Shown here: piece after piece, positions 20,098 through 59,709 of the stretch
Layout of the letters: each line of letters opens with the position of its first letter
How positions within the stretch are numbered: the stretch's first letter is position 1
From: Bacteroidota bacterium
GTDB taxonomy: Bacteria > Bacteroidota > Ignavibacteria > UBA10030
DNA: 64,000 bases
Assembly (NCBI GenBank): GCA_026416125.1
Contig: JAOAFT010000009.1
Span: forward strand, 1-64,000
Direction of reading: 5' to 3'
Notes under the pieces: generated by a model
Told to the model about the DNA's origin: nothing
The model's database searches: none
Seen by the model: only the letters and a program-made list of their open reading frames with translations
Position numbers and translations under genes: made by a program

Positions 20098-20310
20098 ATA
20101 GAAGGCTTTCATGATTCAACACCTGGGTTGGTAACAATTAAGGTGTTCGATATTCTTGGTCGAGAAATTGCGACGATTGTGAACGAAGTGAAACAACCTG
20201 GCACCTACACTGTAGCCTGGAACGCAACAGGATTTACAAGTGGTGTCTACTTCTACAAGATGCAGGCTGGGAACTTCACAGATATCAAGAAAATGGTACT
20301 GTTGAAATAA
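20098..20310 (+). pseudogene. Orphan type IX secretion C-terminal sorting domain (gene remnant)
   Basis: An open frame from just after an in-frame TAG (20095-20097) to TAA at 20310. It encodes a stretch starting STPGLVTIKVFDILGREI, with a later SGVYFYKMQAG, and ending KKMVLLK. That is the complete Por-type (type A) sorting domain normally found at the C-terminus of large secreted proteins in Bacteroidota/Chlorobiota. Nothing upstream in frame encodes a passenger or a signal peptide, and there is no good start codon (only TTG at 20128) or ribosome site. A normal terminator follows at 20341, suggesting the 3' end of a once-complete gene whose 5' part was deleted. An assembly or frameshift cause is less likely because all upstream frames are closed. 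Confidence 0.75.
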
Positions 20311-20568: not shown

Positions 20569-20770
20569 CCTTCCTTTTAAATAAAGAGAGTGGTACGAGC
20601 AATACGGTAATTATAAAGCATTCTATTTATCGCCATAAGGCTGATATTCTCCAGATATGGTTAATAAGTTTCATATCCAAAGCGAAATTTCAAGGAATTT
20701 ACGTATGCGGAAAAATGGCATCCTGATTGTAGTGACAAATGAGGGGTGAAACATAACTCATAAGGTATAT

Positions 20771-23629
20771 ATGGATGTTCAACTCATAGCATTCTATCTT
20801 CCACAATTTCATCCTATTCCAGAAAATGATCAATGGTGGGGGAAGGGATTTACAGAATGGACAAATGTTACCCGTGCCAAGCCTCTTTACAAAGGTCACT
20901 ATCAGCCCCATCTTCCTGCAGATTTAGGGTTTTATGATTTACGAAATCCAGAAACACGGGAAGCACAAGCAGATCTCGCAAAATTATATGGAATTTCTGG
21001 CTTTTGCTATTGGCATTATTGGTTTAATGGAAAACGCTTACTTGAAAGGCCATTTGAGGAAGTGTTAGAGAGTGGAAAACCAGATTTCCCTTTTTGTTTG
21101 GCATGGGCAAACGAGCCCTGGTCACGTCGATGGCATGGGTTAGAACAAGATGTTCTTCAACCCCAAACATACGGAGGTGAAGAAGATGATGAACGACATA
21201 TCCAATGGCTTGTTAAAGCATTCAAAGATAAACGATATATAAAACTCGATGGGAAGCCATTATTTTTAATTTACAATCCTGCACATTTACCATCGCCGGA
21301 ATGCACGATTGAGCGCTGGAGAAAATGTGTACAAAAAGCAGGGTTTGATGATCTTTTCATTGTTGCGATAAAATCACATGAAAAAACATGGACAAAAAGT
21401 TGGAAAGATAGTGGTTTTGATCATGAATTAATTTTTCAACCGAACTTTGGTATTATTAAGGATCTTCACACTACCCTGCAAAGCTTTTCAATACTTCCAA
21501 CTATTTATGGAAGAGACGAAGTTGACCCGATTGTTGTACCATACAATGTTGTATGGAAAGACTTTGCAGCATTTTCTCTACAGTACCCGTCATTGTTTAC
21601 AACAGTTGTGCCACAATGGGATAATTCTCCGCGTCGAAAGTACCAACCTGTGATTCTTGAAGGTCCTTCTCCAATTGAATATGAGAAATGGCTAACGTTT
21701 GATATCGATCGTGCACGGGTTGAAAAGCGGCCTTTTGTCTTTGTTAATGCGTGGAATGAATGGGCTGAGGGAAACCACTTAGAACCAGATCAACAGTATG
21801 GACATGCCTTTCTTCAAGCCACCTACAATGCTCTAAGTGCGTCACCTGAACGTATTATTGAATGTATCTGCGATGTTGTAATTGCAATACTCCATAACGA
21901 TAACCAAGAACTCGCAAATAAAGTATTAATTGATCTCCAAAATCGTTTTGGGAGTACACAAGTGAAAACACAACTATCGCGAAAACTTAAAGAATTTAAT
22001 TTACTGAGTAAAAATCGAGAAGCCGTAGAACTGTTTCGTGCAGGTCAATTGCAGAAAGCTATTTCGATATTCGAAGATCTTTTTCATCACTCTAACCATC
22101 CATTGATTATTCGCAATTTAGCATGTTCATATTATGAACAGCAGCAGTATGAGACTGCACTTCAGCTCCTTACGTCACAGAAAGAAGCAACTCTTGAAAA
22201 TCCGTTTGCTCGACTCCTTGAGGCGGAGTGTAGGGAACACCTTGGTGACTTGAGTGGTGCGCTCCGTATCTATGGAGAACTCCTTACTGATTCTTACGAT
22301 GAGTTACGTTGTATGCAACGGATTCAACGGCTTGTGGTACCTGAAGAGAAGACGCAAAATGCCAGGCAAGAAACTCTGTTCACTTCGATAATTGTTGTTA
22401 CGTTCAATAACCTTCACTATACACGAGAATGCCTTGCATCGATTCTTGAACATACAACACCCCCATATGAGCTTATTGTTATTGATAATGCGAGTAGTGA
22501 TGGGACACCTGAGTGGCTCGAAGAATTTTGTTCAAACAATTCACAATGCAAGTGTGTGTTAAATCCCTCAAACATTGGATTCCCAAAAGCAGTAAATCAA
22601 GGGTTGCGTATTGCTCGCGGAGATGCTGTTGTTTTGGTAAATAATGATGTCGTAGTTACTGAAGGCTGGTTAAATGGCCTTCTTCGTATTGCAACAGAAT
22701 ATGAGAGTATTGGACTTGTAGGGCCGATGACAAATTACATTAGTGGTTCGCAAAAAGATCGTACAGCGTGGTATTCAACTCGTCAACACATGCTTCAGCA
22801 TGCTCGAAAAACCAGGGAGCTTTACCGCAATGTGATGTATGAAGCTACACGGATACGTTTTTTTTGTGTGCTTATTACGAAGAAAGCCTTAGAGCTATGT
22901 GGAGGTCTCGATGAACGTTTTACCCCCGGAAATTGTGAAGATGATGACTACTGTTTACGTGTTCAAAAGGCAGGGCTCCGTGTTGTTATCGCACGGGATG
23001 TTTTTGTTCATCACTATGGTTCAAAGGCATTTTCGTCCATTGGAAAAGGATTCTTTGAAGATATTCTTTTCACGAACATAGAACGCTTTCGAGAAAAGTG
23101 GGGGATTAGTGTATATGATATAGGTATGAATAATCCACATGAGAAACACTACCCTCTGAAATATCCTGTTTCATCCAATCGACTCGAAGAAGCGATTGAA
23201 CGAGCTCTCATGCATGTGCAAGCCAATGAAATGATTCAGGCAGCAAAGTTACTTGATGAAGCTCTTGAATTGATGAATTCTTCAGATGTTCATAAACAAG
23301 AGTTGATGAGCATCGAGGATCTTTACAACATTGCTGGAAAAGTGTTCCTAAGCATTGGAAACCTGGAGCGCGCAAAGGAATTGTTTGAACTTGAACTGCG
23401 AATGAATCCTACATCTGCACGAGCATGCGCTGGATTGGGGAAAACATTTTACGCAGCGTCGTTGTACGAAGCTTCAAAAACGATGTATGAATATGCGTGC
23501 GTATACGATGTGACAAATAACAGTGTTAGAGAAGAATTAGGGAAAGTAAATGAAATCCTTGGGTTATCCCGTGAGCATAATTCACTTGTTCAGCAATGCG
23601 ATGTTCTAAACGAGGGTACTAATGAATGA
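20771..23629 (+). CDS. WbsX-like (GH99-like) domain, TPR, GT2 glycosyltransferase, TPR fusion
   Basis: 952 residues. Residues 1-350 are a WbsX-type domain, known from O-antigen clusters: IAFYLPQFHPIPENDQWWG near the N-terminus, ANEPWSRRW (about 114) and NAWNEWAEGNHLEPD (about 326). TPR-like helices fill about 400-535. A GT2 domain follows: TSIIVVTFNN (about 538), VIDNASSDGTPEW, the metal-binding LVNNDVVV (about 624) and CEDDDYCLR (about 722) with HHYGS. More TPR-like helices close the chain (815-950). It is predicted cytoplasmic, building or transferring glycan. The ATG at 20771 has only a weak site (AAGG 20762). It overlaps the next gene by 8 nt, so the three glycan genes are co-translated. 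Confidence 0.85.
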   Translation: MDVQLIAFYLPQFHPIPENDQWWGKGFTEWTNVTRAKPLYKGHYQPHLPADLGFYDLRNPETREAQADLAKLYGISGFCYWHYWFNGKRLLERPFEEVLESGKPDFPFCLAWANEPWSRRWHGLEQDVLQPQTYGGEEDDERHIQWLVKAFKDKRYIKLDGKPLFLIYNPAHLPSPECTIERWRKCVQKAGFDDLFIVAIKSHEKTWTKSWKDSGFDHELIFQPNFGIIKDLHTTLQSFSILPTIYGRDEVDPIVVPYNVVWKDFAAFSLQYPSLFTTVVPQWDNSPRRKYQPVILEGPSPIEYEKWLTFDIDRARVEKRPFVFVNAWNEWAEGNHLEPDQQYGHAFLQATYNALSASPERIIECICDVVIAILHNDNQELANKVLIDLQNRFGSTQVKTQLSRKLKEFNLLSKNREAVELFRAGQLQKAISIFEDLFHHSNHPLIIRNLACSYYEQQQYETALQLLTSQKEATLENPFARLLEAECREHLGDLSGALRIYGELLTDSYDELRCMQRIQRLVVPEEKTQNARQETLFTSIIVVTFNNLHYTRECLASILEHTTPPYELIVIDNASSDGTPEWLEEFCSNNSQCKCVLNPSNIGFPKAVNQGLRIARGDAVVLVNNDVVVTEGWLNGLLRIATEYESIGLVGPMTNYISGSQKDRTAWYSTRQHMLQHARKTRELYRNVMYEATRIRFFCVLITKKALELCGGLDERFTPGNCEDDDYCLRVQKAGLRVVIARDVFVHHYGSKAFSSIGKGFFEDILFTNIERFREKWGISVYDIGMNNPHEKHYPLKYPVSSNRLEEAIERALMHVQANEMIQAAKLLDEALELMNSSDVHKQELMSIEDLYNIAGKVFLSIGNLERAKELFELELRMNPTSARACAGLGKTFYAASLYEASKTMYEYACVYDVTNNSVREELGKVNEILGLSREHNSLVQQCDVLNEGTNE

Positions 23630-24965
23630 ACCAATCGTTTCGTTAGCTATGATTGTAAAAAATGAAGAAGCAATGCTTCCAGAATGCTTAGAGAGTGTTA
23701 ACGGTATTGTTGATGAAGTAGTTGTAGTCGATACAGGGTCGACGGATGCTACCAGAGACGTAGCCAAAGCATTAGGCGCACATGTGTATGTTTGTCCATG
23801 GACGAACAATTTTGCAGAAGCTCGTAATCGTGCATTGCGCTACTGTACTGGAACATGGATTCTCCAACTCGATGCAGATGAGCGGTTGGCTCATTGGAAC
23901 AAAGCGGTGCTTCTAAAGCATATAAACAACAATCACTACGATGCATTCATTGTTACTATTGAATCACCGATGGGAGAAAAGGGAGGAACTGTTCTCTCAT
24001 CAGCTCTTCGACTGTTTCGTCGTGATGCAACAATTGAATACGAAGGAATTATTCATGAAAGCGTGCTCCCTTCACTCCAACGCCATGGAGGTAAGATTGG
24101 AATCTTACCTTTACGCATTTACCATGTAGGATACGAAGAACCATCGAGACACAGACAAAAAGCTCTACGGAATGTAGCATTAATGGAGGAATATCTTGCA
24201 CAGAATCAAAATGATACTCTAATGGGTATCCACTATGCGATGGGGTTAACTACATTGCATCGATTTAATGACGCAAAGAAGGTCTTACATTCTCTCCTAC
24301 GGAACACTGATACATCCATACCTCTAGTAGTAACTGCGCTCAATCTCCTGGCCCAAATTGCATTAGAGGAAAAAGAAATCCAGTTAGCGAGAAAGTACAC
24401 TGATCGGTCTCTTTCATTGTTTCCCGAGCAAATGTACGCTCGTAAACTTCGTGTTGTAGCACTCGTGCACAATCGTGAGTATTCACGGGCAGAACAAGAG
24501 CTTCTTGGAATAATTGAAATGCTTAAACGAAAAGACGAGCATCAACAAGGAATTAGTTGGTACGATTCTTTTCCAGCTTATTCGGAAGTAGTTGAGCTAT
24601 TAGGTGCATGTCTTGCTGAACAAGGGAAATTTGAAGAAGCGTTGGAAAAGTTCCTCGAAGCAATTCTTGTTGGCTCAGACTCTCCCTCGATTATAGTAAA
24701 TATCAAAAATATTCTTTCGTACATTCCAACTCTCTCTGTGTATGAAGAAAAAATTCGGAAAATTGTTGCGTCAAATATGGTTCATTCTTCTTTACTTCCC
24801 TATGTACTGGTGGAAGTACTTTGTGCAAATGGGAAATACAATGATGCTATGATTGTTGGAAAAAACTATTCTATACCTGAGAAAGTGATGCTTGAATGTC
24901 AAGTACGTTGGATGGTTCAAAGAGGAGAAGAGCGTTTTCTCTATCGGTCTTTATTATCTTTTTGA
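23622..24965 (+). CDS. GT2 glycosyltransferase with C-terminal TPR
   Basis: 447 residues. The N-terminal 200 residues are a GT-A fold of the family that begins SLAMIVKNEEAMLPECL, with VVVDTGSTDATRDVA (about 37) and the metal-binding LDADERL (about 85). The C-terminal half is TPR-like helices. Such GT2-TPR proteins are common in loci that glycosylate flagellin or secreted proteins, where TPRs can hold the protein acceptor. It overlaps the preceding fusion by 8 nt and precedes the methyltransferase/GT9 fusion. Sugar and acceptor cannot be deduced. Confidence 0.85.
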   Translation: MNEPIVSLAMIVKNEEAMLPECLESVNGIVDEVVVVDTGSTDATRDVAKALGAHVYVCPWTNNFAEARNRALRYCTGTWILQLDADERLAHWNKAVLLKHINNNHYDAFIVTIESPMGEKGGTVLSSALRLFRRDATIEYEGIIHESVLPSLQRHGGKIGILPLRIYHVGYEEPSRHRQKALRNVALMEEYLAQNQNDTLMGIHYAMGLTTLHRFNDAKKVLHSLLRNTDTSIPLVVTALNLLAQIALEEKEIQLARKYTDRSLSLFPEQMYARKLRVVALVHNREYSRAEQELLGIIEMLKRKDEHQQGISWYDSFPAYSEVVELLGACLAEQGKFEEALEKFLEAILVGSDSPSIIVNIKNILSYIPTLSVYEEKIRKIVASNMVHSSLLPYVLVEVLCANGKYNDAMIVGKNYSIPEKVMLECQVRWMVQRGEERFLYRSLLSF

Positions 24966-24990
24966 TTTGTAAACTTTCGTGAGTGAACAT

Positions 24991-27900
24991 ATGAAAATCC
25001 ATGAAGTACTCTTTGCATTACCCCATGGTAAGGGTATAGTTCGAGAAGATAATCAGTGGACAAACGGATCTATGTACCAAGCGTATAACGAAATCGGAAC
25101 AATTCTTAATCCATTATCAATTGTTGGCATTGGTGTTGACTTCGGGCACAGTCTCATTGCGCTTATTGACGGTGCATCTAGGGTTCGTGAAATTGTATGG
25201 TTCGATGATGAGTCTTTGATTCCAAATTCGAATCAAATGTGCTTGAACAATATTCGGTACTATTTTGAACACTTATCAAAAGTTTCAAAGCAAGTCGATG
25301 TTCAATATTCATACTCTAAGAACCTATTACTTAATGCTATTTCAGAAGGGAAAAAGTACGATCTCATTCATATAAGAGGAGACAGTTCATACAATAGTAC
25401 GTTTGATAATTTAAATATAGCCTACCACCTTTCGCCAAAAGTTATACTGGTAGATGGTTACCTGCGCTATGAAGAGGTACGACATGCTGCCAGTGTTTTG
25501 GCGTCGTTGTATTGCTTTCGATATGCTGTGTTCCCAAAACACGATGGGATAGCTATTATTGATAGAACACCACAGTGTAGTATTATTTCAAAGTTAGTTG
25601 AATCAAATGTCCAAATCGACTTTGTTGAACCTTTCCAAGAAATGATAAATAGGAAAACATGCTGGTGTGGAGGAACGTTAAGCGAGCAATCAGTACATCC
25701 ATTGTACAACCATTGTGACAACTGTGGGACATTCGTATATCCAGGTACGGTGTCTGAAGAAGGAATAAAAAAACTCTACAAGTGTTCAGACTATTGGTAC
25801 ACGCATGTTCAAGCTATGGGGTTTCCTACTTTAGAAGAACGTGGAGAATATATTCTTAAACAGCGAGTGCCACGATGGTATGATCTGGTTCTACGATATG
25901 CAAAGAAGATTGACCCGTTGCTTGAAATTGGCTGTGCTGAAGGCTCATTCTTGTGGTACTGTAAGGATAAGGGAATACCGTCGGTCGTTGGCGTTGAAGT
26001 TGATGAAGACACCTGCTCATTTGCAAGAAAAAAATATGGCCTTGAGCATGTGTACAGTGGAGTTTTTCCTCATGTATCACTGCCATATACCAAGTACAAT
26101 GTTATTTGTGCTTTTGATGTGCTCGAGCATTTTGCTGATCCTCTCCTCTCATTACGAGCAATGAAAAACCTTTTGGGTGATGGCGGAATACTGATTATTC
26201 AAACACCAATCTATAGAGGAGAAGGTGCCACATGGTTGCATTTTAAACCCCCAGAGCATCTCTATCTTCTTACAGAAGAAAGTGCCAGGCTCCTCTTTGA
26301 CCGTGCTGGATTTGATGTTATTTCAGTTGAAGATGGTTTCATACGAGAAGATAAAATTTTCATTCTACAAAAGAAGGTCGATGTCGATGCACTGGTAATA
26401 CCAAGGAGAAATAGTACTATAAAAGAATCTACGGCAGAATTTAGTATTGCAGTAGGGTTGATTGAACACTTTGGAGATATTGTTGCATGTGAACCTGTTA
26501 GTCGATATCTGCGTTACATGTACCCGAGTGCATACATTGTGTGGTGTGTAAGAAAAGAGTATGTAGAGATATTGAGGAATAATCCCTATCTCGATGAAGT
26601 TGTAACAGTTCATTGTCTTACAGAGTGGATCGAGATAAAAGAATCGGGAATTTACAATCAGTACGTTGATTTGCACATCGATCGAAGAAAGTGTCCAGTA
26701 TGTGGCCGTGAGTTAGTAAAAGATACACCATTTCGGGTTACTGGCGAAACATACTTTAAAGTTGGAAATTTACTTTCGGCGTTTTCGAAAGGTGCTGGTC
26801 TCCCTGCCTTGGATGGTGTTCCGAGGGTGTACATCGATGAAGCGACGGTTGAGGCGGTGAACCATCTTTCTTTGCCAAGACGATTTGTGGTTTTCCATGC
26901 AATGGCAAATGAATCAGATCGAGATTGGCACAAGGCTGGGTGGGCAGCTCTTTTAGCATATCTGAAGAATAAGTACGATCTCCCAGTTGTAGAAATTGGT
27001 GTTAGACCAGTACTGTCGCAATTTTCCGATCTCGTAGTGAATCTTTGTGGGAAAACAACACTTCTTGAAACGGCAGAGATCATACGTAGAGCAGCATTGT
27101 TTGTCGGTGTGGAAAGTGGTCCTGCACACATGGCATATGCACTAGGTACTGATGCAGTGATTCTTCTTGGTCAGTATCGATCGTTTCAACGATATATTCC
27201 ATATTCAAAGGTTGAGGAAAAAAGTAAGAACTTCAAACTTGTCTATAGTCGTGGTGGTCCAGCCCAAAACGTACATATCGAAGATGTTTGTAGAGCCATC
27301 GATGACTTTCTACAACAATCAACTCTCTGTGTTCAGAATTCCCAAGAGCGAGAATTACAGAACCCAGGATATTGTCAACGAACACTTTTAGATAGTCGAT
27401 ATTCACTTGATGAACAATCCGTAGTTTTATTTTCACAAGTATTATCACACGGGAATGACATTGAATCGATACGTTACGCACTCCGTATTGCAGCTCGTAA
27501 ATATGCTCATGAATATCACAGTGATAAGTTAGGGAATGGTGCAGAAAAGAGTACCGCTCTCTTGGTAGACCTTGTTCATCTTCTCCTACACTACGGAATA
27601 GTGACAGTAGACCGGGGGAATGTGTATAAAGGATGGCAGTTGATTTACCGTGGATTACGGAGAGCTCATGAGGAAGATATTTGGGAGAACTATTGCACCA
27701 TTGATCAACAATTTGGAGTACGAAAGCACTTAAACACATATTTTCAAGATCTTGAGTCAACAGAGGATTTCCCAAAAGAATTCATGTATGCATTCTCGCT
27801 TTTCCTTGCATTGGAACAGCAGTTTGATGGAGCTTTGCAAGTGATTGAAGCTGTACAGAATCGTGATCCGATGGATAAAGAAGCAGAGAAAATTCAAACA

Positions 27901-28197
27901 CTAATCCATCGATCGATTGAGAGGTACCTACGAAAAACAGCAAAAGCAGGAAGTGCTCTCCTCGAACAAGCTGAGGAATACATTCAAAATGGTCGTTTTT
28001 CGCTAGCTGAGGAATTATTATATCAAATACTTTCTAGTTGTCCGGATAACGTTGATGCATTGAATGATTTGGCGGTGATATATATAGCACAGGGTAAAGT
28101 AGAAAAATCTATAACAGTGCTTAATAAAGTTTTAGTTCTTGACCCAGTGAATGAAATTGCGATAGAAAATTTGCAAGCGATTTTTACGTCGACATAG
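24991..28197 (+). CDS. Multidomain methyltransferase, GT9-like glycosyltransferase and TPR fusion
   Basis: 1068 residues from the ATG at 24991 (an in-frame GTG at 24979 is possible; neither has a strong site). Residues about 1-210 look like a divergent class I methyltransferase-like domain (GVDFGHSLIALIDG, YDLIHIRGDSSYNST, VILVDGYLRYEEV); this part is inferred. A zinc-ribbon-like segment with CWC and CDNC follows (about 223-246). Next is a clear SAM methyltransferase: LLEIGCAEGSF (about 310), FDVLEHF (about 375). Then a GT9/heptosyltransferase-like domain: FSIAVGLIEHFGD (about 484) to GVESGPAHMAYALG (about 706). TPR-like repeats end the chain (about 860-1068). The next gene is flagellin, 158 nt downstream, so flagellin is a candidate acceptor. 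Confidence 0.82.
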   Translation: MKIHEVLFALPHGKGIVREDNQWTNGSMYQAYNEIGTILNPLSIVGIGVDFGHSLIALIDGASRVREIVWFDDESLIPNSNQMCLNNIRYYFEHLSKVSKQVDVQYSYSKNLLLNAISEGKKYDLIHIRGDSSYNSTFDNLNIAYHLSPKVILVDGYLRYEEVRHAASVLASLYCFRYAVFPKHDGIAIIDRTPQCSIISKLVESNVQIDFVEPFQEMINRKTCWCGGTLSEQSVHPLYNHCDNCGTFVYPGTVSEEGIKKLYKCSDYWYTHVQAMGFPTLEERGEYILKQRVPRWYDLVLRYAKKIDPLLEIGCAEGSFLWYCKDKGIPSVVGVEVDEDTCSFARKKYGLEHVYSGVFPHVSLPYTKYNVICAFDVLEHFADPLLSLRAMKNLLGDGGILIIQTPIYRGEGATWLHFKPPEHLYLLTEESARLLFDRAGFDVISVEDGFIREDKIFILQKKVDVDALVIPRRNSTIKESTAEFSIAVGLIEHFGDIVACEPVSRYLRYMYPSAYIVWCVRKEYVEILRNNPYLDEVVTVHCLTEWIEIKESGIYNQYVDLHIDRRKCPVCGRELVKDTPFRVTGETYFKVGNLLSAFSKGAGLPALDGVPRVYIDEATVEAVNHLSLPRRFVVFHAMANESDRDWHKAGWAALLAYLKNKYDLPVVEIGVRPVLSQFSDLVVNLCGKTTLLETAEIIRRAALFVGVESGPAHMAYALGTDAVILLGQYRSFQRYIPYSKVEEKSKNFKLVYSRGGPAQNVHIEDVCRAIDDFLQQSTLCVQNSQERELQNPGYCQRTLLDSRYSLDEQSVVLFSQVLSHGNDIESIRYALRIAARKYAHEYHSDKLGNGAEKSTALLVDLVHLLLHYGIVTVDRGNVYKGWQLIYRGLRRAHEEDIWENYCTIDQQFGVRKHLNTYFQDLESTEDFPKEFMYAFSLFLALEQQFDGALQVIEAVQNRDPMDKEAEKIQTLIHRSIERYLRKTAKAGSALLEQAEEYIQNGRFSLAEELLYQILSSCPDNVDALNDLAVIYIAQGKVEKSITVLNKVLVLDPVNEIAIENLQAIFTST

Positions 28198-28239: not shown

Positions 28240-28266
28240 TTAAGTTTTTCCTCAAGGTGCCGAAAA
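28240..28266 (+). promoter_or_regulatory. Sigma-28 (FliA)-type promoter of flagellin
   Basis: TTAAGTTT (28240-28247), 11 nt, GCCGAAAA (28259-28266): a close match, with exact spacing, to the FliA consensus TAAAGTTT-N11-GCCGATAA. It lies about 90 nt before the flagellin start, giving a leader of roughly 80 nt. An FlgM-like anti-sigma gene lies downstream in the same module. Confidence 0.85.
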
Positions 28267-28299: not shown

Positions 28300-28350
28300 G
28301 GGCACGGAAGCCCCAAAAATTAACAACATTAACCATTAATTACATGGAGG
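28300..28350 (+). promoter_or_regulatory. Flagellin 5' leader: GGA-loop hairpin and ATGGAGG ribosome site, possible CsrA sites
   Basis: GGGC (28300-28303) pairs with GCCC (28310-28313), exposing the hexaloop ACGGAA, and 31 nt further the ribosome site reads ATGGAGG (28344-28350). Both contain ANGGA, the core of CsrA binding sites, one in a hairpin loop and one over the Shine-Dalgarno, the usual arrangement for CsrA repression of flagellin. No csrA or fliW is in this window, so this is a prediction from motif placement. Confidence 0.4.
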
Positions 28351-28355
28351 TAGTT

Positions 28356-29510
28356 ATGGCATTCTCATCAGGTTCCCGCATCAACACCAATATTGGTGCA
28401 TACAATGCACTAAACGCGTTAAATAACGTGAATCGCGAGATTGGTGTACACCAACTTCGCTTAGCCACAGGCAAGCGTGTCAATTCAGCGCAGGATGATG
28501 CATCTGGCTACGTTATTTCGAAGAAAATGGATGCACGCATCCGAGCGTTAACGGTTGCTCTCGACAACATGGGCGATGCCCAGAGCGTTCTGAGCACAGC
28601 GGAGAGCGGATATCAGACAGTTGCAGATTTGCTCGTACAGATGAAGGAAAAGCAAACCCGCTACAAGAACGGCAGCTGGAGCACAGAAGAAAAAGAAGCC
28701 ATTGTTGCCGAGATGGAACAACTTCGCCAAGAGATCTTGGAAACGATCCAAAGCACAAAGTTCAACGGTGTAAAGCTAATGGATGGATCGTTTGCCAATG
28801 TGTCGTTAAGTGGAACAAGCACCATGAAAGTTGGCGATACAGGGTCGACCTATGTGGTCATTACCAACATTGATGTTTCTTCAGCAAAAGCTGGAAAGAC
28901 ATACAATATGACCTACAGTGGTGCTTACGTAACACTTACAAATGCAAGCGATGCAACCGACACCCAAACTGTCCAAGTAAAGGCTGCAACAGCTCAAGGT
29001 GAAACACAAACGCTGAACTTCGATCAACTTGGGATTAAGATTTCATTGCTCTCCAAAGCAGCAGGGACTGCTGCACAAATTGCAGCTGAATTGGACAGCT
29101 TAGGTGATGGAGCAAGCGACATTGTAACGAGCTCAGGTACAAGTCGTGGCTTTGAAGTCGGCGGTAGCTCGCTGTTATCGATTAGCTTTGCAAACTTGAC
29201 GACACTCGGACTCTACAGCACCTCAATTACCACGAGCAATGCAGACACTGTTGATATTGACACAGACTTATCAACGGTCAACAGTGCTATTGGGACTATT
29301 GGTGCTCAGTTGGCACGTTTGACAACGAAAGAAGCCAACTTGAATGCAGCAATTACCAATACGCAGGCTGCTCAAAGCCGAATTGTTGATGCGGATATTG
29401 CAAAAGAGCAAATTGCGGCTGTGAAGTTGCAAATTCTCCAGCAGACAGCGACTGCACAGTTGGCACAGGCCAATCAGGCTCCGCAAGTCTTCTTGACACT
29501 CTTCCGTTAA
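28356..29510 (+). CDS. fliC: Flagellin
   Basis: 384 residues. The conserved D0/D1 N-terminus (NIGAYNALNALNNVNREIG, LATGKRVNSAQDDASGYVIS) and C-terminus (QSRIVDADIAKEQIAAVKLQ, then QANQAPQVFLTLFR) enclose a variable Ser/Thr-rich centre of about 150 residues, suited to O-glycosylation. The start is ATG 28356, 5 nt after GGAGG; the ATG at 28344 overlaps that site and is not used. A sigma-28-type promoter precedes and a hairpin follows, so it can be transcribed alone at high level. Next genes are fliS (its export chaperone) and fliD (the cap). Confidence 0.98.
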   Translation: MAFSSGSRINTNIGAYNALNALNNVNREIGVHQLRLATGKRVNSAQDDASGYVISKKMDARIRALTVALDNMGDAQSVLSTAESGYQTVADLLVQMKEKQTRYKNGSWSTEEKEAIVAEMEQLRQEILETIQSTKFNGVKLMDGSFANVSLSGTSTMKVGDTGSTYVVITNIDVSSAKAGKTYNMTYSGAYVTLTNASDATDTQTVQVKAATAQGETQTLNFDQLGIKISLLSKAAGTAAQIAAELDSLGDGASDIVTSSGTSRGFEVGGSSLLSISFANLTTLGLYSTSITTSNADTVDIDTDLSTVNSAIGTIGAQLARLTTKEANLNAAITNTQAAQSRIVDADIAKEQIAAVKLQILQQTATAQLAQANQAPQVFLTLFR

Positions 29511-29590: not shown

Positions 29591-29977
29591 ATGCAACACG
29601 CAGTAGCTCAGAAAATTGGCAGTGAAAGTGGAATGAAAGAAGGAAGACTGTTGGTTCCGCAGAAACAATTAAACGTCGCTGCACAACGATACCAACGGGA
29701 ACAGTATATGAACCTTACACCAGTAGAGGTCATTAAAAAACTCTATGATGTTGCTATTTTAGGCTGTAAAAAACGCGATAAAGCGCTTGCAAATAATGCT
29801 GTTACAGAACTCATTGTTGGATTAAATTTTGAGTACCAGGAAATTGCTCTTGGACTCTATCGTTTGTACCAGTATGTAAAACATTGTTTGCGCCATGAGA
29901 ATTATTCCGAAGCTGAATATGTGTTGCAGGAATTACGGACAACATGGATGCAAGCATTTCATTTAGAAGATAAATGA
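29591..29977 (+). CDS. fliS: Flagellar export chaperone FliS
   Basis: 128 residues, all-helical. After a 33-residue lead, YQREQYMNLTPVEVIKKLYDVAILGCKK matches the FliS N-terminal helix pattern (Y..n.v.t.sp.eli..LYdgai), and the last helices end in LQELRTTWMQAF, like FliS. It binds the flagellin C-terminus in the cytosol and prevents early polymerisation. Position between fliC and fliD supports the call. The ATG at 29591 follows GAGGAA. Confidence 0.85.
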   Translation: MQHAVAQKIGSESGMKEGRLLVPQKQLNVAAQRYQREQYMNLTPVEVIKKLYDVAILGCKKRDKALANNAVTELIVGLNFEYQEIALGLYRLYQYVKHCLRHENYSEAEYVLQELRTTWMQAFHLEDK

Positions 29978-29990
29978 AAGGCAACGAACA

Positions 29991-31502
29991 ATGGCAGCAA
30001 CATCATCCATATCGAACGTATCAAGTACATCAACACAGCTTGAATCAGTAGCAACAAAGTATAAATCTCTGTTAGTTGCTCAGTATGTAACACCGTTGAA
30101 TAATAAGAAGACAAATCTTCAAGCACGGATCAATGCACTTAATACGTTGAAGTCAAAACTTAAAGCGTTGAGCGATGCTGCGACTGGTCTCACCGGTTCA
30201 AGCGGAGTAACGAAGTTTAAGATTTATTCCGTTGAGAGTAGCAACAGTGCAGTTGCAACAGCGACCGCATCAGCGATAGCATCGCCAGGGTCCTTTACGC
30301 TCTCGGTTCAATCACTCGCAAAGGCGGATACTTTATTATCGTCGCGAATAACGAATTCTGAACAATCTATTGTTTCAACAGAATTCACACCAGAAGAGCA
30401 GACTGCGGGGGAAGCAATCAGACAGATTCGTGTGAAAATCCATGGGGTTGAGGTTGCAACAATTTCTGTTACGCTTTCAGCCAGTGACAATAATCGAACA
30501 GTATTGCAGAAGCTTCGTGATGCATTGAATAGTTCGCAGGAAGCATCAAAGTACATTTCAGCTGCGGTGGTCTCAGATACTCAAACGACATCTCGGTTAA
30601 CTATATTAAGCAAAAACACAGGTGAAGAGAATACAATCAGCCTTGAAGATGTTACGGGCGCATTACTCGATGCTATTGGCATAACGGATGATGTAGTAAC
30701 AAACCGCGTTGCTTCTACTTCGTCAACAGCGGGTTATGTAACAGGAAATGCAAGCGATCTCAATGCCCGATTTACACTCAATGGTGTTGACTTCACTAGT
30801 GGAAAAAATACAGTTGTTGATGTTTTACCAGGAATCACACTACAGTTAAAATCAGCTCAGAGCCAAAATGAAAATCCAGTGCAATTTCTCGTGTCAGTCG
30901 ATACTTCGTCAGTACAATCAAATATTCAAACATTCATTTCGGCCTACAATGCGGTCGTAACGTACATTAGGCAACAAACAGCAACGAATCCCCAGGCTGG
31001 GACACGAGAAATATTCGCTGGAGATTCTTTTGTCACAAACATACGAGTAAATCTTCAGTCGTACGTATCACAGGCTGTCAACGATATTGGAGAAGACTAT
31101 AACGCATTGTTTAAAATAGGCATTACACAAAACCGCGATGGTACGCTGACACTCAGTAATGTGTCAAAACTCAACGAGGCCCTGAAAAATAACCTTAGTA
31201 CCGTTATTGACCTCTTTGGGGCTAGCAATGGAGAAACTAAGGGTATTGCGGTACGGATTAAAGAAGCGTTGAGTAATATCATTGGTACTGCTGGACAAAT
31301 AGAATCAACACAAACAACGTTGAAATCACAATTGACGTCGTTGACAAACCGAATTACTGCAATGAATAAACGTGTTGAGAAACAGGCTGAACAGTACAAA
31401 TTGCAATTTTCAAAGATGTTAGCTGTATACCAGGAAGCTGTTGCACAACAAACAGCATTGAAAACATTAACCGATTCACTTTACGCAGCATTTTATTATT
31501 AG
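29991..31502 (+). CDS. fliD: Flagellar filament cap protein FliD
   Basis: 503 residues, rich in Ser/Thr/Asn. The N-terminal segment has the FliD_N pattern (LVAQYVTPLNNKKTNLQARINALNTLKSKLKAL is split here as helix 1 and 2), the middle has an FliD-type flagellin-IN repeat (ITLQLKSAQS region, FTLNGVDFTSGKNTV about 258), and the C-terminal coiled coil (GTAGQIESTQTTLKSQL, later QYKLQFSKMLAVYQEAV) matches FliD_C. A pentameric cap at the filament tip helps fold exported flagellin. It follows fliS by 13 nt and precedes flaG by 14 nt. Confidence 0.93.
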   Translation: MAATSSISNVSSTSTQLESVATKYKSLLVAQYVTPLNNKKTNLQARINALNTLKSKLKALSDAATGLTGSSGVTKFKIYSVESSNSAVATATASAIASPGSFTLSVQSLAKADTLLSSRITNSEQSIVSTEFTPEEQTAGEAIRQIRVKIHGVEVATISVTLSASDNNRTVLQKLRDALNSSQEASKYISAAVVSDTQTTSRLTILSKNTGEENTISLEDVTGALLDAIGITDDVVTNRVASTSSTAGYVTGNASDLNARFTLNGVDFTSGKNTVVDVLPGITLQLKSAQSQNENPVQFLVSVDTSSVQSNIQTFISAYNAVVTYIRQQTATNPQAGTREIFAGDSFVTNIRVNLQSYVSQAVNDIGEDYNALFKIGITQNRDGTLTLSNVSKLNEALKNNLSTVIDLFGASNGETKGIAVRIKEALSNIIGTAGQIESTQTTLKSQLTSLTNRITAMNKRVEKQAEQYKLQFSKMLAVYQEAVAQQTALKTLTDSLYAAFYY

Positions 31503-31516
31503 CAGTGAGGTGTGCC

Positions 31517-31855
31517 ATGACAACAATACAAGCCGTTGGTACTGAAGCTCCTTATCCAATACAGGATGTACGCTTCGAGAAAGAGCACAATCATTTACAG
31601 CAACGAAAATCTGTAGCAACGAAACAGTTAAGGAAGGAAGAGCTTGCAGCAGTTGTTGAAGAACTCAATAAAGCAATGCAAGTAGTAGGTACAACATTGG
31701 CATTTACAATCGATGAACATACAAAGAAAACAGTGGTAAAAGTACTTAATGCCCAAACGGGTGAAGTGATACGCCAAATCCCACCCGAAGAAATGTTGAA
31801 AGTATCTCAACGTATTGCAGAGTTAATGGGGATTCTCATTGATCAATCGCTGTGA
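31517..31855 (+). CDS. flaG: FlaG-family flagellar protein
   Basis: 112 residues from the ATG at 31517 (an in-frame GTG at 31505 is less likely). The C-terminal 75 residues are the FlaG domain: LNKAMQVVGTTLAFTIDEHT, then VKVLNAQTGEVIRQIPPEEM. FlaG proteins affect filament length in several bacteria. Neighbours fliD and a chaperone-like gene are as usual for this family. Confidence 0.9.
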   Translation: MTTIQAVGTEAPYPIQDVRFEKEHNHLQQRKSVATKQLRKEELAAVVEELNKAMQVVGTTLAFTIDEHTKKTVVKVLNAQTGEVIRQIPPEEMLKVSQRIAELMGILIDQSL

Positions 31856-33648: not shown

Positions 33649-33785
33649 TCAACCCATCTACGTAATAGTGCTTACAGCAAACAACGTAGTATAAAATTAC
33701 GTCATATCGTGTATTGCGTTCAGTTGGCGAATATTGTACACTTGTACACGAATTTCATAAGGTCCATAAACCAAGTACAATCACG

Positions 33786-35372
33786 GTGCAAAAGAAAGCA
33801 AAAAATAATATTACAATTCTTGTTGTTGATGACATTCCTGAGAACCTTGAGCTTTTTCTCGATGTTTTTGTTGACGAGGGGTACCAAGTTCTCAAGGCTG
33901 AGAGTGGTTTTCAAGCATTAGAAATTCTTTCCCAGCACACTGTTGATTTAATTGTGGCTGATGCCCTGATGCCGCGAATGGATGGATTAGAACTTTGCAA
34001 GAAAGTACGCTCCCACGAACAGTGGAAAACTATCCCATTCATTATTTACACAAGCAATTACATAGATCCAGAAGATGAGGAACTTGCAAAGAGCATAGGT
34101 GTCGATCGTTACATTATGAAATCATACGGATTGCGAAGTCTCGTTAATGCTGTTGAAGAGGTTCTTAACTTTCCTTCTCCTGATACTGTAGGGAACTCAG
34201 TTCCTCCGATTGATGAGTATAGTTTTCTTGAGCGGCACCACAGCATTGTCATGAAAAAGCTCGAAGAAAAAATGAAAGAACTTGAACAGTACACTGAAGT
34301 GTTAATGCAGCGTAACCAAGAGCTTATTGCTTCGGAGGGTCGCTATCGAAGTTTATTCGAACAAGCAATTGTTGGAATAGCTGTTCTCGACAATTATGTT
34401 AAAAAAATAGTGGATGTTAACAAGGAATGTTGTCTGCTTTGTGGTACCGATCGTTCAACAATACTCACGACATCATCGCTTCCTCTGTACACACTTGATG
34501 GAAGTCCGCTAGATATTTTTTCTCTTCAGCGAGTGCAAGGTTTAGAAGTACGATTACGAAGGGCTCACGTATCGGATCGATATGTCGAATTGAGCATCGG
34601 TCCGATTGAAATTCCCAATGACACGTCTTTTTCATTGCTTTTTCTTCGGGATATCACTGAACAAAAACGATTGCGGGAACAGATGTTTCAAAACGAACGA
34701 ATGACAACAATGGGACGTATTGCTGCTGGTATAGCACACGAAATACGGAATCCACTCGCTGGTATTTCTTTTAACTTGCAGTTCCTCGAACGACGTCTGC
34801 AAAAAGGTACACAGGAACATGATTCTGTCGTTTCAGCACTCGAAGGCGTTGAACGTATTCGTCAGGTTATTGAGGATACTCTGGGATTAGCACGCTTTAA
34901 ACCACCGTCGTTCAATCGGGAAGATATCCATACTATTGTTGATAAAACACTTTCGTACTTAAAGTTGACATTGCGTCAGAAATCTATTCAGATTAAGAAA
35001 AACTATGCAGAGGCTCTGCCTCTAGTGAATGTTGATTCAAGTCAAATTCAGCAAGTGCTGTTAAACATACTTCAGAATGCTATCGATGCTTCTCCAGAAC
35101 ATGGTGTAATTGAAATTTCTTCTGGCTTAACAAATCACCAACATTATCCGGAACGAGAGTATGTCTTTGTGAGTATTCGCGATCAGGGGAATGGTTTCAC
35201 GGCTGATGTTCTAGAACATCTCTTTGAGCCCTTCTATACAACGAAGATAGATGGTACAGGATTGGGGTTGATGATTTCAAAATATGTCATCGATCATCAT
35301 CAAGGAATAATCGAGGCAAAGAATGATACAGGGGCATGTGTTACTGTGTACTTACCACGAGAGAAAGGATAA
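33786..35372 (+). CDS. Receiver-PAS-histidine kinase
   Basis: About 528 residues. Domain order: receiver (ILVVDDIPENLELF, Asp in LIVADALMP, Lys in YIMKSY), coiled coil, PAS (YRSLFEQAIVGIAVLDNY), HisKA with the H-box GIAHEIRNPLAG (His318), and HATPase (LLNILQNAIDASPEHG, DQGNGF, GTGLGLMISKYVI). It is soluble. The receiver at the N-terminus means it accepts as well as gives phosphate. No ATG lies before the receiver: the start is GTG 33786 or TTG 33714, neither with a clear ribosome site. It is 3 nt from the sigma-54 activator gene, its probable partner. Confidence 0.88.
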   Translation: MQKKAKNNITILVVDDIPENLELFLDVFVDEGYQVLKAESGFQALEILSQHTVDLIVADALMPRMDGLELCKKVRSHEQWKTIPFIIYTSNYIDPEDEELAKSIGVDRYIMKSYGLRSLVNAVEEVLNFPSPDTVGNSVPPIDEYSFLERHHSIVMKKLEEKMKELEQYTEVLMQRNQELIASEGRYRSLFEQAIVGIAVLDNYVKKIVDVNKECCLLCGTDRSTILTTSSLPLYTLDGSPLDIFSLQRVQGLEVRLRRAHVSDRYVELSIGPIEIPNDTSFSLLFLRDITEQKRLREQMFQNERMTTMGRIAAGIAHEIRNPLAGISFNLQFLERRLQKGTQEHDSVVSALEGVERIRQVIEDTLGLARFKPPSFNREDIHTIVDKTLSYLKLTLRQKSIQIKKNYAEALPLVNVDSSQIQQVLLNILQNAIDASPEHGVIEISSGLTNHQHYPEREYVFVSIRDQGNGFTADVLEHLFEPFYTTKIDGTGLGLMISKYVIDHHQGIIEAKNDTGACVTVYLPREKG

Positions 35373-35375
35373 ACT

Positions 35376-36791
35376 ATGCCGAAAGGTCGGGTTCTTATTG
35401 CGGACGATGAACAAACGTTGTGTATTTCGTTAAAAAATCTTCTTACCGAAGCCGGATATACACCAGAGATTGCAAGGAATAGAGTAGAGTTCTTTACAAA
35501 ACTTGGTGCAGTAAATCCAGATGTTGTATTACTTGATGTGTATTTAGGTGATGACAATGGTATTGATATTCTTCGCCAAATGAAAACTGATGGGTGGAAT
35601 ACACCAGTTATTGTTATGACTGCACACTCAGAAATTGCTATTGCTGTTAGAGCCATGAAAGAAGGTGCAGTAGAGTTTCTAGAAAAACCATTTGATACGG
35701 ATTACTTGTTTTTACTTATCGAACGTACTCTTGAGTTTGTACACTTGGAATCACGAGTGAAGCTTCTCCAGGAGGAATTAGAAGAGCAGTGGGCAAAGAG
35801 CGGTATTATTGGGAAAAGTCGTTCCTTACGCCGTACACTTGAAATAGCAGAACGTTTTGCCCAGAGTGATAGCACAACTATCCTCATCGAGGGTGAGAGT
35901 GGAGTTGGAAAAGAGCTTTTAGCCCGCTACATTCATCAGAAAAGTATCCGTTCCGATAAGCCATTTATTGCATTCAACTGTGCTGCTATCCCGAAAGATT
36001 TAGCTGAGAGTGAATTTTTTGGGTACGAACGGGGTGCATTCACTGGAGCAGTAGAGAAGATGAAACAGGGGAAATTTGAACTCGCGAACGGTGGTACTAT
36101 TCTCCTTGATGAAATCGGTGAACTTTCCCTCGATATGCAAGTTAAGTTGTTGCGAGTACTTGAGGAAAAGAAATTTTACAGACTCGGTGGTACACGAGAA
36201 CTCTCCATCGATGTTCGTATTATTGCTGCTACAAATCGGAGCCTTGCCAAAGAAACAGAGGCAGGGCGGTTTCGGGAAGATCTGTTTTATAGGTTAAATG
36301 TAGCAACTATACATATTCCTCCACTCCGAGAACGAAAGGAAGACATTCAACCGCTGGTTCTTGCGTTTGCTCATGAGTTTGCTCAAAAGTTCAATAAGCC
36401 AACACCGAAAGTTTCCAGTGATGCTATTCAATATCTTTCCGATTTACCTTGGAAAGGAAATATCCGCGAGCTTCGGAATTGCATCGAACGTGTCGTATTA
36501 CTCCACGATGTTCCTGTACTGACTTCCGAACATTTCGCGTTTATGCAAGGAGGAACAAAAGCAGAAGTGCATTCAGTACACTTTGGTAACGATACGTACT
36601 ACCTTCAAGTACCAAAGAAAGGAGTGAAAATGAACGATGTACTCAAAGATCTCATTCTCAAAACGCTCGAATTAACTGGGGGCAATCAGGTACAAGCTGC
36701 AAAAGTTTTGGGAATAACACGAGCGAAACTACGGTATAAAATGGAGCAGCTTGGAATTAAACCAGAAATGAGAACTTATAAGACCCAGTAA
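35376..36791 (+). CDS. NtrC-family sigma-54-dependent response regulator
   Basis: 471 residues: receiver (Asp54 in VVLLDVYLGDD), AAA+ domain with Walker A GESGVGKELL, the sigma-54-contact motif GAFTGA at 220-225, Walker B GGTILLDEIGEL, and the arginine-finger region FREDLFYRLNV; then a Fis-type helix-turn-helix (LELTGGNQVQAAKVLGIT). All parts needed to open sigma-54 promoters are present. Within a motility island this is a good candidate for a FlrC/FlgR-like master regulator of the flgB operon, which has a sigma-54-like promoter at 49787. Tightly flanked by two kinases. Confidence 0.93.
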   Translation: MPKGRVLIADDEQTLCISLKNLLTEAGYTPEIARNRVEFFTKLGAVNPDVVLLDVYLGDDNGIDILRQMKTDGWNTPVIVMTAHSEIAIAVRAMKEGAVEFLEKPFDTDYLFLLIERTLEFVHLESRVKLLQEELEEQWAKSGIIGKSRSLRRTLEIAERFAQSDSTTILIEGESGVGKELLARYIHQKSIRSDKPFIAFNCAAIPKDLAESEFFGYERGAFTGAVEKMKQGKFELANGGTILLDEIGELSLDMQVKLLRVLEEKKFYRLGGTRELSIDVRIIAATNRSLAKETEAGRFREDLFYRLNVATIHIPPLRERKEDIQPLVLAFAHEFAQKFNKPTPKVSSDAIQYLSDLPWKGNIRELRNCIERVVLLHDVPVLTSEHFAFMQGGTKAEVHSVHFGNDTYYLQVPKKGVKMNDVLKDLILKTLELTGGNQVQAAKVLGITRAKLRYKMEQLGIKPEMRTYKTQ

Positions 36792-39700
36792 TGATAAAGC
36801 CAAAAATATCTGTACTTTGTATTATCTCATCCCGAGAGCGTGCAGATGCGATCTATACTGTTCTTAACCAAGAGTACTCCATTACTCAATGGAAGTGGTT
36901 GAAGGGTATACCCAAGCAGAAAATAACTCCATTCATACCAACCCTTGTTATAGTTCAACGCTCAGTGCTCAAACAGCTGTCACATGTGAAGTTTTTAAAA
37001 GAACAATTTCCGTCATCGATTCACATTCTCCTTACTACAAAATCCATACTGAGTCAGTCACTCTGCACTACGTTTGACGCTATACTTTCTATTAGAGAAC
37101 TTAAAAAGCTTCCAGAATATGTCCAACACTGTATCTTCAACTCCAATACTCCCAATCTGTATGATAACACTTTGTCGCTCGAAAAAAACAGATTGTTCTA
37201 TGAGTTACAAGAAGAACGAAAAAAGGTTACTGATTTAACTGAACAATTGAAACATTATGAAGAACTTTTTACAAAAGCTTTTTTAACAACACCCGATGCA
37301 GTAAATATTAATCGACTTCACGATGGCCTTTACATTGCTGTGAATGAAGGATTTACTTCGCTCACAGGGTACACCTCTGATGATGTAAAAGGGAAAACAT
37401 CACTTGAACTAAGTATCTGGGCTAATCCAGATGACAGGAAAAGACTTGTCGAAGAATTGAAAGCGCATGGTAAAGTAAAGGACTTTGAAGCTCAATTTCG
37501 ACTCAAAGATGGAAGTGTTCGCACGGGTATTATGTCTGCATCAATTGTTACGGTTAACGGAGAACTATGTATTCTCTCTATTACTCGCGACATAACCGAA
37601 CGGAAAATAATAGAGAACAGATATCGGACACTATTTGAATCGTCACCAGACCCGATTGTACTTTTTGATGAGAATTTTATTGTATGCGGAATCAATCAAC
37701 GAGCAGTTAATGTATGGGGTGCAGCAGATAAGGAGTACTTTATTGGGAAAAGTATTTTAGAGTTCCTTGTACCCGAGGATCGTCCTCGTGCTATTGAAAG
37801 CAATAAAAAATTTCTCGATTCGATGGAACCTCGTACCGCTGTATATACATTGCTGCGTCCTAATACTACAACACTGTCATGTGAAGTGAATGTTGCTCGG
37901 TTTCCACAAGAACCTGGGGGAAAACGATTGTACATCGCGATCCTTAGAGATATCACTGAAAAACTCCGTACGCAACAAGAACTTCAATTATTAGCACATG
38001 CATTGAAAAGTATTCACGAGAGTGTTATCATTGTTGATCAACAAGGTACAGTGCTGTATGTTAATGAACAGTTTGAGAAAGTGTATGGTTTTTCAGCACG
38101 TGAAGTACAATCTCAACAGTACACAACAATTATTTTCCCAGGAATTGTAGATGAAGTCGAAATTGCTTTTGAGCAATGTCGTAAAGAAGGAGAATGGAAC
38201 GGTGAACTTGTACACCGGAAAAAAGATGGTACCCTGTTTCCTGTTCATTCAGCGTTCTACAGAATTGTTGGAGAGGACAACAAGATTGTATCGTTCGTCA
38301 ATATCGTCCAAGACCTTACACAGGGAAGAAAAATAGAAGAGGTTCTCCGAAAAATTGTTCGTGGAACCTCAACATCTATTGGTGCTGAATTTTTCAAAAC
38401 GTTTGTATACCATCTCTCTTCTGCTTTAATGGTAGATGTTGTATTCGTTGGGAGTCTTGATGATCAAAACCCTACCACATTGAAGCAAGTAACATATTGG
38501 AGAGGGAAGTATGAGGAGTCCAATGTACCTATTGTCTTAGAACACACTGAACTTTCATTCCTTACACTCGAGAATAGGGATTTCTTCTATCCCTCCGAGA
38601 TCCAACAATCATTCCAACAAAAAATGTTTCCCGATAGTACAGTTCATATCGTAGGGGTTGTACCTCTCAGGGATAATGATAATATTGTCAGAGGGCTTAT
38701 TGTGCTTGCCCATGGTTATCCTAAAGAACTTACTCGCCAAGAGATCGCTGTTTTGAAAATTTTTGCATCTCGTGCTGCTGCTGAACTTCGGCGTTTGAAA
38801 GCTGAAGAAGAATGGAAAAAACTTCTTCTCGCTGTTGAGTACAATCCTATTGCCATCGCTATCGTTACCCAGGATCATCGGGTGGAATACGTCAATCCGC
38901 AGTTTACAGCTATTACAGGCCATGCGTTGATGGATATCAAAGGACAACCAATCTATTCGATACCGTTTGATCAGGCAGATCTCATTCGGAACTTACTGAC
39001 AAATGCAATCGACGGTGATATTGTCGTTTCAAAGCGAGGAAGGAAGAGTATTACAAGCTATGTTCGGGCAATACCAATTATTACATCAAATAAAACAGTA
39101 AGTCATTACGTTATATTGATCGAGGATTTTACACAGCGTCGTACAATTGAAGAACGACTACGTTTATCGGAACAACGACTGCAAGAAATATTTGAGAACG
39201 ATATCACAGGGAATTATGTTTGTCTTCCGGATGGAAAAATTCTCGATTGTAACTCTGCCTTTGTCGCTATGTTTGGTTTTGCTTCGTACAAAGAGGCATG
39301 TTCAACGTTGATGTCAACTCTCTATAAAGACAACGAATGTTTTCCGTTGATCGTTGAGATGATTAGAGAGAAGAAGAAGATATTACACGCAGAGTACGAA
39401 ATGAAACGAGTGGATGGGAAAGTGCTGTATGTTGTTCAAAATATACTCGGGATCTATAATGACGATGGTACGTTAAGAGAAATATTTGGCTATATATATA
39501 ATAACACAGAGCGACATCTATTAGAGCTTCAAGCTCGTCAATCGCAGAAAATGGAATTAATTGGAACACTTGCAGGCGGCATAGCTCACGATTTTAACAA
39601 TATTCTTAACAACATTATTGGTTTTTCTACCCAAGCCCGACGCCACGTATATGAACCCGAACGGGTTCTCAGGTATTGCAATTCGATAGAAAAGTCAGCA

Positions 39701-59671: not shown

Positions 59672-59709
59672 ACATGTTCTAAACAATTAACTATATGGAG
59701 GGTTCAACT

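Follow-up and report, generated by a model that had tools for sequence, protein, structure and literature searches.

Glycosylation of flagellin is known mostly from Proteobacteria and Firmicutes, where it involves separate enzymes. One of the best comparisons for the present locus is GmaR of Listeria, a bifunctional protein that is both a flagellin N-acetylglucosamine (GlcNAc) transferase and an antirepressor; the relevant passages of PMC9638930 assign GlcNAc transfer onto flagellin to its N-terminal domain and propose its tetratricopeptide repeat (TPR) part as the flagellin binder. In Caulobacter, according to the corresponding passages of PMC7591256, FlmG is cytoplasmic, serves pseudaminic acid and owes its specificity to an N-terminal TPR part that binds flagellin. 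Flagellin glycosylation islands with methyltransferases are described in parts of PMC4875605 for Enterobacteriaceae, in which transferases also hold methyltransferase domains, and of PMC5109656 for Geobacillus. Here, a locus of three genes (ORF1, ORF2 and ORF3) preceding the flagellin gene fliC is analyzed in a Bacteroidota bacterium of the class Ignavibacteria. It lies in the first 64,000 nucleotides of contig JAOAFT010000009.1, hereafter the window, from a genome of 2.41 Mb in 77 contigs that is 98.65% complete.

A first-pass annotation had described three overlapping or near-adjacent genes with WbsX, glycosyltransferase 2 (GT2), methyltransferase and glycosyltransferase 9 (GT9) domains, each fused to TPR regions and followed by flagellin as the next gene. 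Open reading frames and Pfam bear out both points. The three genes are tightly packed on the same strand, with an overlap of 8 bases between ORF1 and ORF2 and a gap of 13 bases between ORF2 and ORF3 in the list of open frames, and ORF3 ends 146 bases before fliC, the sole flagellin gene found in the genome (a second, weak match is FlgL-like). The FliA gene is on the same contig. The proposal of that annotation that these genes form a flagellin glycosylation cluster of TPR-fused transferases gains support from relatedness to GmaR, co-occurrence with flagellin, a conserved neighbourhood and sigma-28-like promoters in the related Kryptonia. In our judgement, the cluster probably serves the O-glycosylation of flagellin in the cytoplasm, with ORF2 starting the glycan and ORF1 and ORF3 extending and methylating it.

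The putative starter is the best defined of the three proteins. Pfam finds in ORF2 a GT2 domain at residues 7-128 (E 2e-24) together with TPR, and the closest PDB sequence is GmaR (E 1.4e-32), followed by SunS (2.1e-22) and ThuS (7msk, 9.7e-12). A structure model built from 10 aligned sequences, with a mean predicted local distance difference test (pLDDT) of 85, is nearest to SunS and ThuS both in Foldseek (4.6e-18 to 1.3e-15, against 3.7e-08 for the next match) and in structural alignment (Z 26.8-24.5 against 18.8). Positions of the DTGSTD, LDADER, HE and HxGY types are conserved in all 10 aligned ORF2-type sequences. With nucleotide-sugar and metal motifs, TPR directly after GT2 and a predicted SunS/ThuS-like fold, ORF2 appears to be a GT2-TPR enzyme of the GmaR/SunS type; with 80.5 bits in NCBIfam TIGR04195, where the cut-off is 350, it does not qualify as a SunS equivalog. 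SunS and ThuS share its GT2-plus-TPR architecture and provide the closest solved fold, but their acceptor is a bacteriocin cysteine, whereas that of ORF2 would be flagellin. GmaR shares the order GT2 then TPR and the flagellar context; it differs in its length of 637 residues, against 447 for ORF2 (about 190 shorter), and only ORF2 has further transferases alongside. The working mode proposed for ORF2, cytoplasmic and guided to flagellin by TPR, would be that of FlmG as presented in the same passages of PMC7591256, although the catalytic domain of ORF2 is a GT2 and no sequence link between the two was seen here. A search of the genome for Maf (PF01973) gave no match, the control matching only archaea.

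Given the double function of GmaR, ORF2 might instead be chiefly a regulator, acting as GmaR does in its antirepressor role, with glycosylation as a secondary activity. Its shorter chain and the retention of the catalytic motifs in every aligned sequence speak against this, and we consider it highly improbable. A genome search for the MogR family was also without match, but since it gave none in any control either, the absence of MogR does not follow from it.

ORF2-type genes accompany flagellin throughout the class. Among 245 genomes, 84 have a flagellin match (E <= 1e-12), and an ORF2-type GT2, at a threshold of E <= 1e-25 chosen after the tables had been seen, is present in 80 of these 84 (missing from G040, G054, G156 and G184) and in 6 of the 161 genomes without flagellin (G036, G076, G081, G105, G186 and G252). 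The genes are also neighbours: places are listed for 69 of the 84 flagellin genomes, and in at least 39 of these 69 an ORF2-type gene lies no more than 6 kb from flagellin, a lower bound because places are incomplete and weaker ORF2-type matches were dropped. For this count, ORF2-type matches were taken to about E 1e-33 and N-terminal flagellin matches were used, C-terminal ones and one G050 match on a second contig being left aside; relatedness between genomes is ignored in both the co-occurrence and the neighbourhood counts, and a Fisher value for the neighbourhood, which has the same limitation, is not relied on. By family, the proximity holds in f1 (3/3), f5 (3/4), f6 (3/4), f12 (11/11), f14 (12/12), f20 (6/7) and nearly all of f9. 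An ORF2-type neighbour is likewise found in 24 of the 31 flagellin-bearing loci that were read (L206, on the same contig as L117, is omitted), a biased sample whose stretches were partly picked for hits, so that 39 of 69 is the fairer figure. The arrangement occurs in Kryptonia and in genomes that carry the labels Ignavibacteriae, Calditrichaeota, KSB1 and, in one case, Deltaproteobacterium. Glycosyltransferase genes thus adjoin fliC and are kept there across genomes, in the manner of a flagellin glycosylation island, and the synteny with fliC that had been suggested as a check is found for ORF2-type genes in several families of the clade, though not in f11, f19 and f21. Related domains are also seen in other settings. 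L214, L215, L218 and L219 encode two or three tandem GmaR-type GT2 domains, in most cases accompanied by TPR, and the stretches read there contain no flagellin. G036, in which no flagellin was detected, encodes a protein of 2293 residues with GT2, GT4, TPR and a GmaR-type domain (L220, 6704-13585).

Promoter-like sequences would connect part of these genes with the flagellar hierarchy. The sigma-28-like site of fliC starts 104 bases upstream of the gene and scores 21.5 of 24.5, a level reached about 0.1 times per shuffled window. Only 18 sites score 21 or more among 497 upstream regions, taken from the window and 38 further loci: 14 precede flagellins, 3 precede the multi-domain gene of Kryptonia and 1 precedes another gene. 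As L117 and L206 are one contig, two of the three Kryptonia sites are one locus. Where the Kryptonia loci are divergent, a sigma-28-like site stands 50-57 bases upstream of the multi-domain gene itself (scores 24.5, 21.5 and 20.5 of 24.5), and in L208 and L120 such a site lies 59-61 bases before a lone ORF2-type gene (20.5 and 20). These predicted sites support a link with the flagellar hierarchy in relatives; within the window, only fliC has a sigma-28-like site of its own.

The two larger proteins combine several predicted activities. In ORF3, Pfam identifies Methyltransf_23 at 298-450 (E 5.3e-21), GT9 at 598-744 (7.8e-14) and TPR at 1002-1067 (1e-10). Residues 1-240 hold in addition a weak methyltransferase-24-like domain, absent from the first-pass annotation and below the Pfam cut-off (E 0.011), which has a relative in L213 (5e-33) that also adjoins a methyltransferase 23. 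The presence of methyltransferase domains is what suggests that a sugar may be methylated. The GT9 domain (window 26434-27351) carries a CPVCG motif and weakly matches the autotransporter O-heptosyltransferase family TIGR04414 (3e-05), a similarity that hints at a possible protein-linked role. In ORF1, a GT2 domain at 539-698 (E 3.1e-29) and TPR around 421-476 and 851-891 follow a WbsX domain (PF14307) at residues 5-351, which scores 454 bits against a gathering cut-off of 25.1 (E 4.7e-136).

The nature of this WbsX domain departs from its usual label. A model of ORF1 residues 1-360 from 15 sequences (pLDDT 82.5, predicted template modelling score 0.87) retrieves GH99 endo-alpha-mannosidases throughout the first 37 Foldseek rows, save one row for a GH-like protein, and in the top 29 rows of VIA-align (Z 24.4-20.6), with an alpha-1,3-glucanase below at 19.1. 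Identity to the listed structures is about 12-18%; searching the PDB sequences with the WbsX domain as a lone query gave nothing convincing, whereas a 15-sequence profile did find GH99 and aligned the WbsX motif N-E-W-A-E-G onto N-E-W-H-E-G. In the Bacteroides xylanisolvens enzyme, the catalytic glutamates of GH99 are E333 and E336, and at the motif the chain titled E333Q has N-Q-W. From this alignment and this chain it follows that both catalytic glutamates, the E-W-x-E pair E330/E333, are kept in WbsX. The WbsX domain of ORF1 is, on its model, a GH99 TIM barrel with both catalytic glutamates, which makes its description as a glycosyltransferase doubtful. It differs from GH99 enzymes in its setting, being partnered with GT2, GT9 and methyltransferase in a protein of putative biosynthetic function. 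An open-access literature search found no description of WbsX as GH99. The domain is rare in the class (13 of 149 genomes); of its 15 places, 10 fall in frames longer than 900 residues. It is also present in proteins on contigs of viral collections (L225-L243), one of which (L226) has a long extra part after WbsX. In the WbsX tree, stand-alone and most viral sequences are set apart from the multi-domain ones (support 87/95), one long-branch viral sequence excepted.

Comparison with related loci, labelled by phmmer with segments named beforehand by Pfam, points to extensive rearrangement of these domains. In Kryptonia (L205, L207 and L117, the last being the same locus as L206), a single protein of about 1420-1440 residues beside fliC reads methyltransferase 23-GT9-WbsX-GT2, the four domains that are split over ORF1 and ORF3 in the window; in a fourth Kryptonia genome (G124), WbsX lies in a frame of 1454 residues, preceded by GT9, between the ORF2-type gene and flagellin. 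The order is constant in every multi-domain protein seen to hold both members of a pair: methyltransferase 23 before GT9 (window ORF3, L117, L205, L207 and L212) and GT9 before WbsX (L099, L117, L205, L207, L210, L212 and L213). In 14 distinct loci, the GT2 at the end of the large proteins is an ORF1 subfamily member, and the GT2 domains that precede it fall into other subfamilies; ORF1-type GT2 is absent from L094, L095, L096, L116, L220 and L222. Other contents are seen in L095 (2803 residues, with four GT4 and one GT2), in L104 (a frame of 3329 residues running off the contig, with RgpF, GT4, GT2 and methyltransferase) and in L100, whose cluster includes radical SAM proteins. Even within family f1, the window, G012 (L091) and G021 (L092) differ in the module sets preceding a conserved ORF2-type gene and fliC. 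These comparisons suggest that the enzymes acting nearest flagellin are conserved and that the outer, sugar-adding parts are exchanged like modules between relatives. The trees were set aside as proof of a fused ancestral gene for ORF1 and ORF3: because the inner order of the WbsX tree is not settled and there is a single distant outgroup in the GT9 tree, descent by splitting is something that we infer.

In L118, L121 and L122, fliC has an ORF2-type gene next to it and the stretch read includes no large multi-domain gene, as would be expected if ORF2 alone glycosylated flagellin and ORF1 and ORF3 acted on another target under the same control. A large multi-domain gene is found directly upstream of the ORF2-type gene in L091, L092, L094, L095, L096, L216 and L222, which argues against such a division of labour, as does the recurrence of the ORF1-type terminal GT2; we regard it as unlikely. 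Two further features were recorded among the related clusters. In L100 (211-5961), TPR-containing methyltransferase/radical-SAM proteins and B12-binding radical-SAM proteins adjoin the flagellin-linked glycosyltransferase cluster. A UDP-galactopyranose mutase gene lies beside the clusters of L116, L100, L104, L217 and L210, a hint of galactofuranose in the glycans of these relatives; the genome of the window has one such gene, on another contig.

Several observations weigh against a flagellin glycosylation machine made of all three genes. The region upstream of ORF1 contains no sigma-28-like site above chance level, its best score of 15.5 being matched in 60% of shuffles, and the candidate site there was rejected. 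Nine loci outside Kryptonia were scored as well (L091, L092, L094, L095, L096, L099, L116, L216 and L222), and in none of them does such a site precede the large upstream gene. ORF2-type genes are never near flagellin in f21 (0/13), f11 (0/3) and f19 (0/4), and the WbsX-bearing large proteins of f12 (L210, L212 and L213) have none of the queried flagellar genes in the 19 kb read. Finally, G040 has a flagellin 51% identical to that of the window and no ORF2-type gene; such a flagellin can therefore do without one. A sigma-54 match at 20716, before ORF1, was also discarded and is not evidence, because the consensus, when up to two mismatches are allowed, occurs 35 times on the window's + strand.

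The f12 proteins lying away from fliC would suit a different target, a surface polysaccharide or another exported protein (for example an S-layer or type IX-secreted protein), with the adjacency to fliC being incidental. The existence of stand-alone WbsX proteins of 370-380 residues (G037, G116, G166 and one of three places in G049) and the name WbsX, which derives from O-antigen clusters, point in the same direction. This explanation is nonetheless improbable in view of the recurrence of the fliC adjacency in distant families, the near absence of ORF2-type genes from genomes without flagellin, the sigma-28-like promoters of the Kryptonia genes, the TPR fusions and the similarity to a flagellin transferase. 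The Ser/Thr-rich centre of flagellin, advanced in the first-pass annotation, does not help to decide. It is indeed rich (29.0%, where 109 window segments of 138 residues average 12.8%), but this was rejected as evidence of glycosylation, being unspecific: equally rich segments occur in FliD and in a long protein at 59695-61329, and the flagellin of G040, which lacks an ORF2-type gene, is comparable (27.7%).

The case for flagellin glycosylation is built on domains, relatedness, fold, neighbourhood, co-occurrence and promoters; whatever concerns the acceptor, the sequence of steps, the nature of each sugar, the target of methylation and the part played by TPR is our inference from these. In the proposed mechanism, the TPR part of ORF2 would bind newly made flagellin in the cytoplasm, before export, and its GT2 domain would attach the first sugar to Ser/Thr residues. 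The GT2 domain of ORF1 would then add the next sugar onto the glycosylated flagellin. GT9 of ORF3 and the GH99-fold WbsX of ORF1 would build or remodel the outer glycan, the methyltransferase domains of ORF3 would methylate a sugar, and the TPR parts of ORF1 and ORF3 may hold the acceptor or each other.

Table 1. Coordinates of the cluster and of the adjoining filament genes in the window
Feature	Position	Strand	Description
ORF1	20771-23629	+	952 aa; WbsX aa 5-351 (predicted GH99-like fold), TPR ~421-505, GT2 539-760, C-terminal TPR ~850-930
ORF2	23622-24965	+	447 aa; GmaR/SunS-type GT2 aa 1-195, then TPR superhelix; proposed initiating flagellin O-glycosyltransferase
ORF3	24979-28197	+	1072 aa, GTG start; methyltransferase-24-like 1-240, CxxC pairs, methyltransferase 23 298-450, GT9 ~490-780, TPR 993-1067
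Sigma-28-like fliC promoter	28240-28266	+	TTAAGTTT-N11-GCCGAAAA; top-scoring site of the window
Flagellin fliC	28344-29510	+	388 aa; Flagellin_N/C (Pfam); proposed acceptor
FliS, flagellin export chaperone	29591-29977	+	Pfam
FliD, filament cap	29991-31502	+	Pfam
FlaG	31505-31855	+	Pfam

The surroundings of the cluster contain two further elements. ORF1 is preceded by a gap of 1.3 kb, in which an open stretch at ~20130-20310 (+), read by eye as ...VFDILGREIATIV...GVYFYKMQAGNFTDIKKMVLLK stop, has no gene body; it resembles the end of a sorting domain for type IX secretion and is probably a gene remnant. Downstream of the filament genes, the region 33714-40666 encodes histidine-kinase-like, sigma-54 activator and PAS-rich hybrid kinase proteins, which are candidate flagellar regulators.

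The islands of Enterobacteriaceae and Geobacillus resemble this locus in placing transferase and methyltransferase genes at flagellin, as far as the passages of PMC4875605 and PMC5109656 show. They differ in that the terms TPR and tetratricopeptide are absent from both papers and WbsX from PMC4875605, and the large shuffled proteins of 1200-3300 residues seen in the clade are not met in those passages. An open-access literature search found no description of flagellin glycosylation in this clade. A more speculative reading, to which we give limited credence, is that the clade's glycan is written in the domain order of TPR-linked modular proteins working somewhat like an assembly line. A conserved GmaR-type starter and a terminal GT2-TPR cassette would be the fixed parts; the outer modules (methyltransferases 24 and 23, GT9, WbsX, GT4, RgpF and other GT2 domains) would be acquired, lost, joined or separated from one genus to another, and WbsX would act within a biosynthetic protein, perhaps as a transglycosidase.

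In a Bacteroidota-related clade, the locus represents a putative GmaR-type starter linked to multi-domain enzymes, fused or split, that change in content from genus to genus. The system also offers an experimental handle on WbsX, a domain with a predicted glycosidase fold and active site despite its glycosyltransferase name. If domain order does predict glycan structure, the evolution of a glycan code would become readable and testable.

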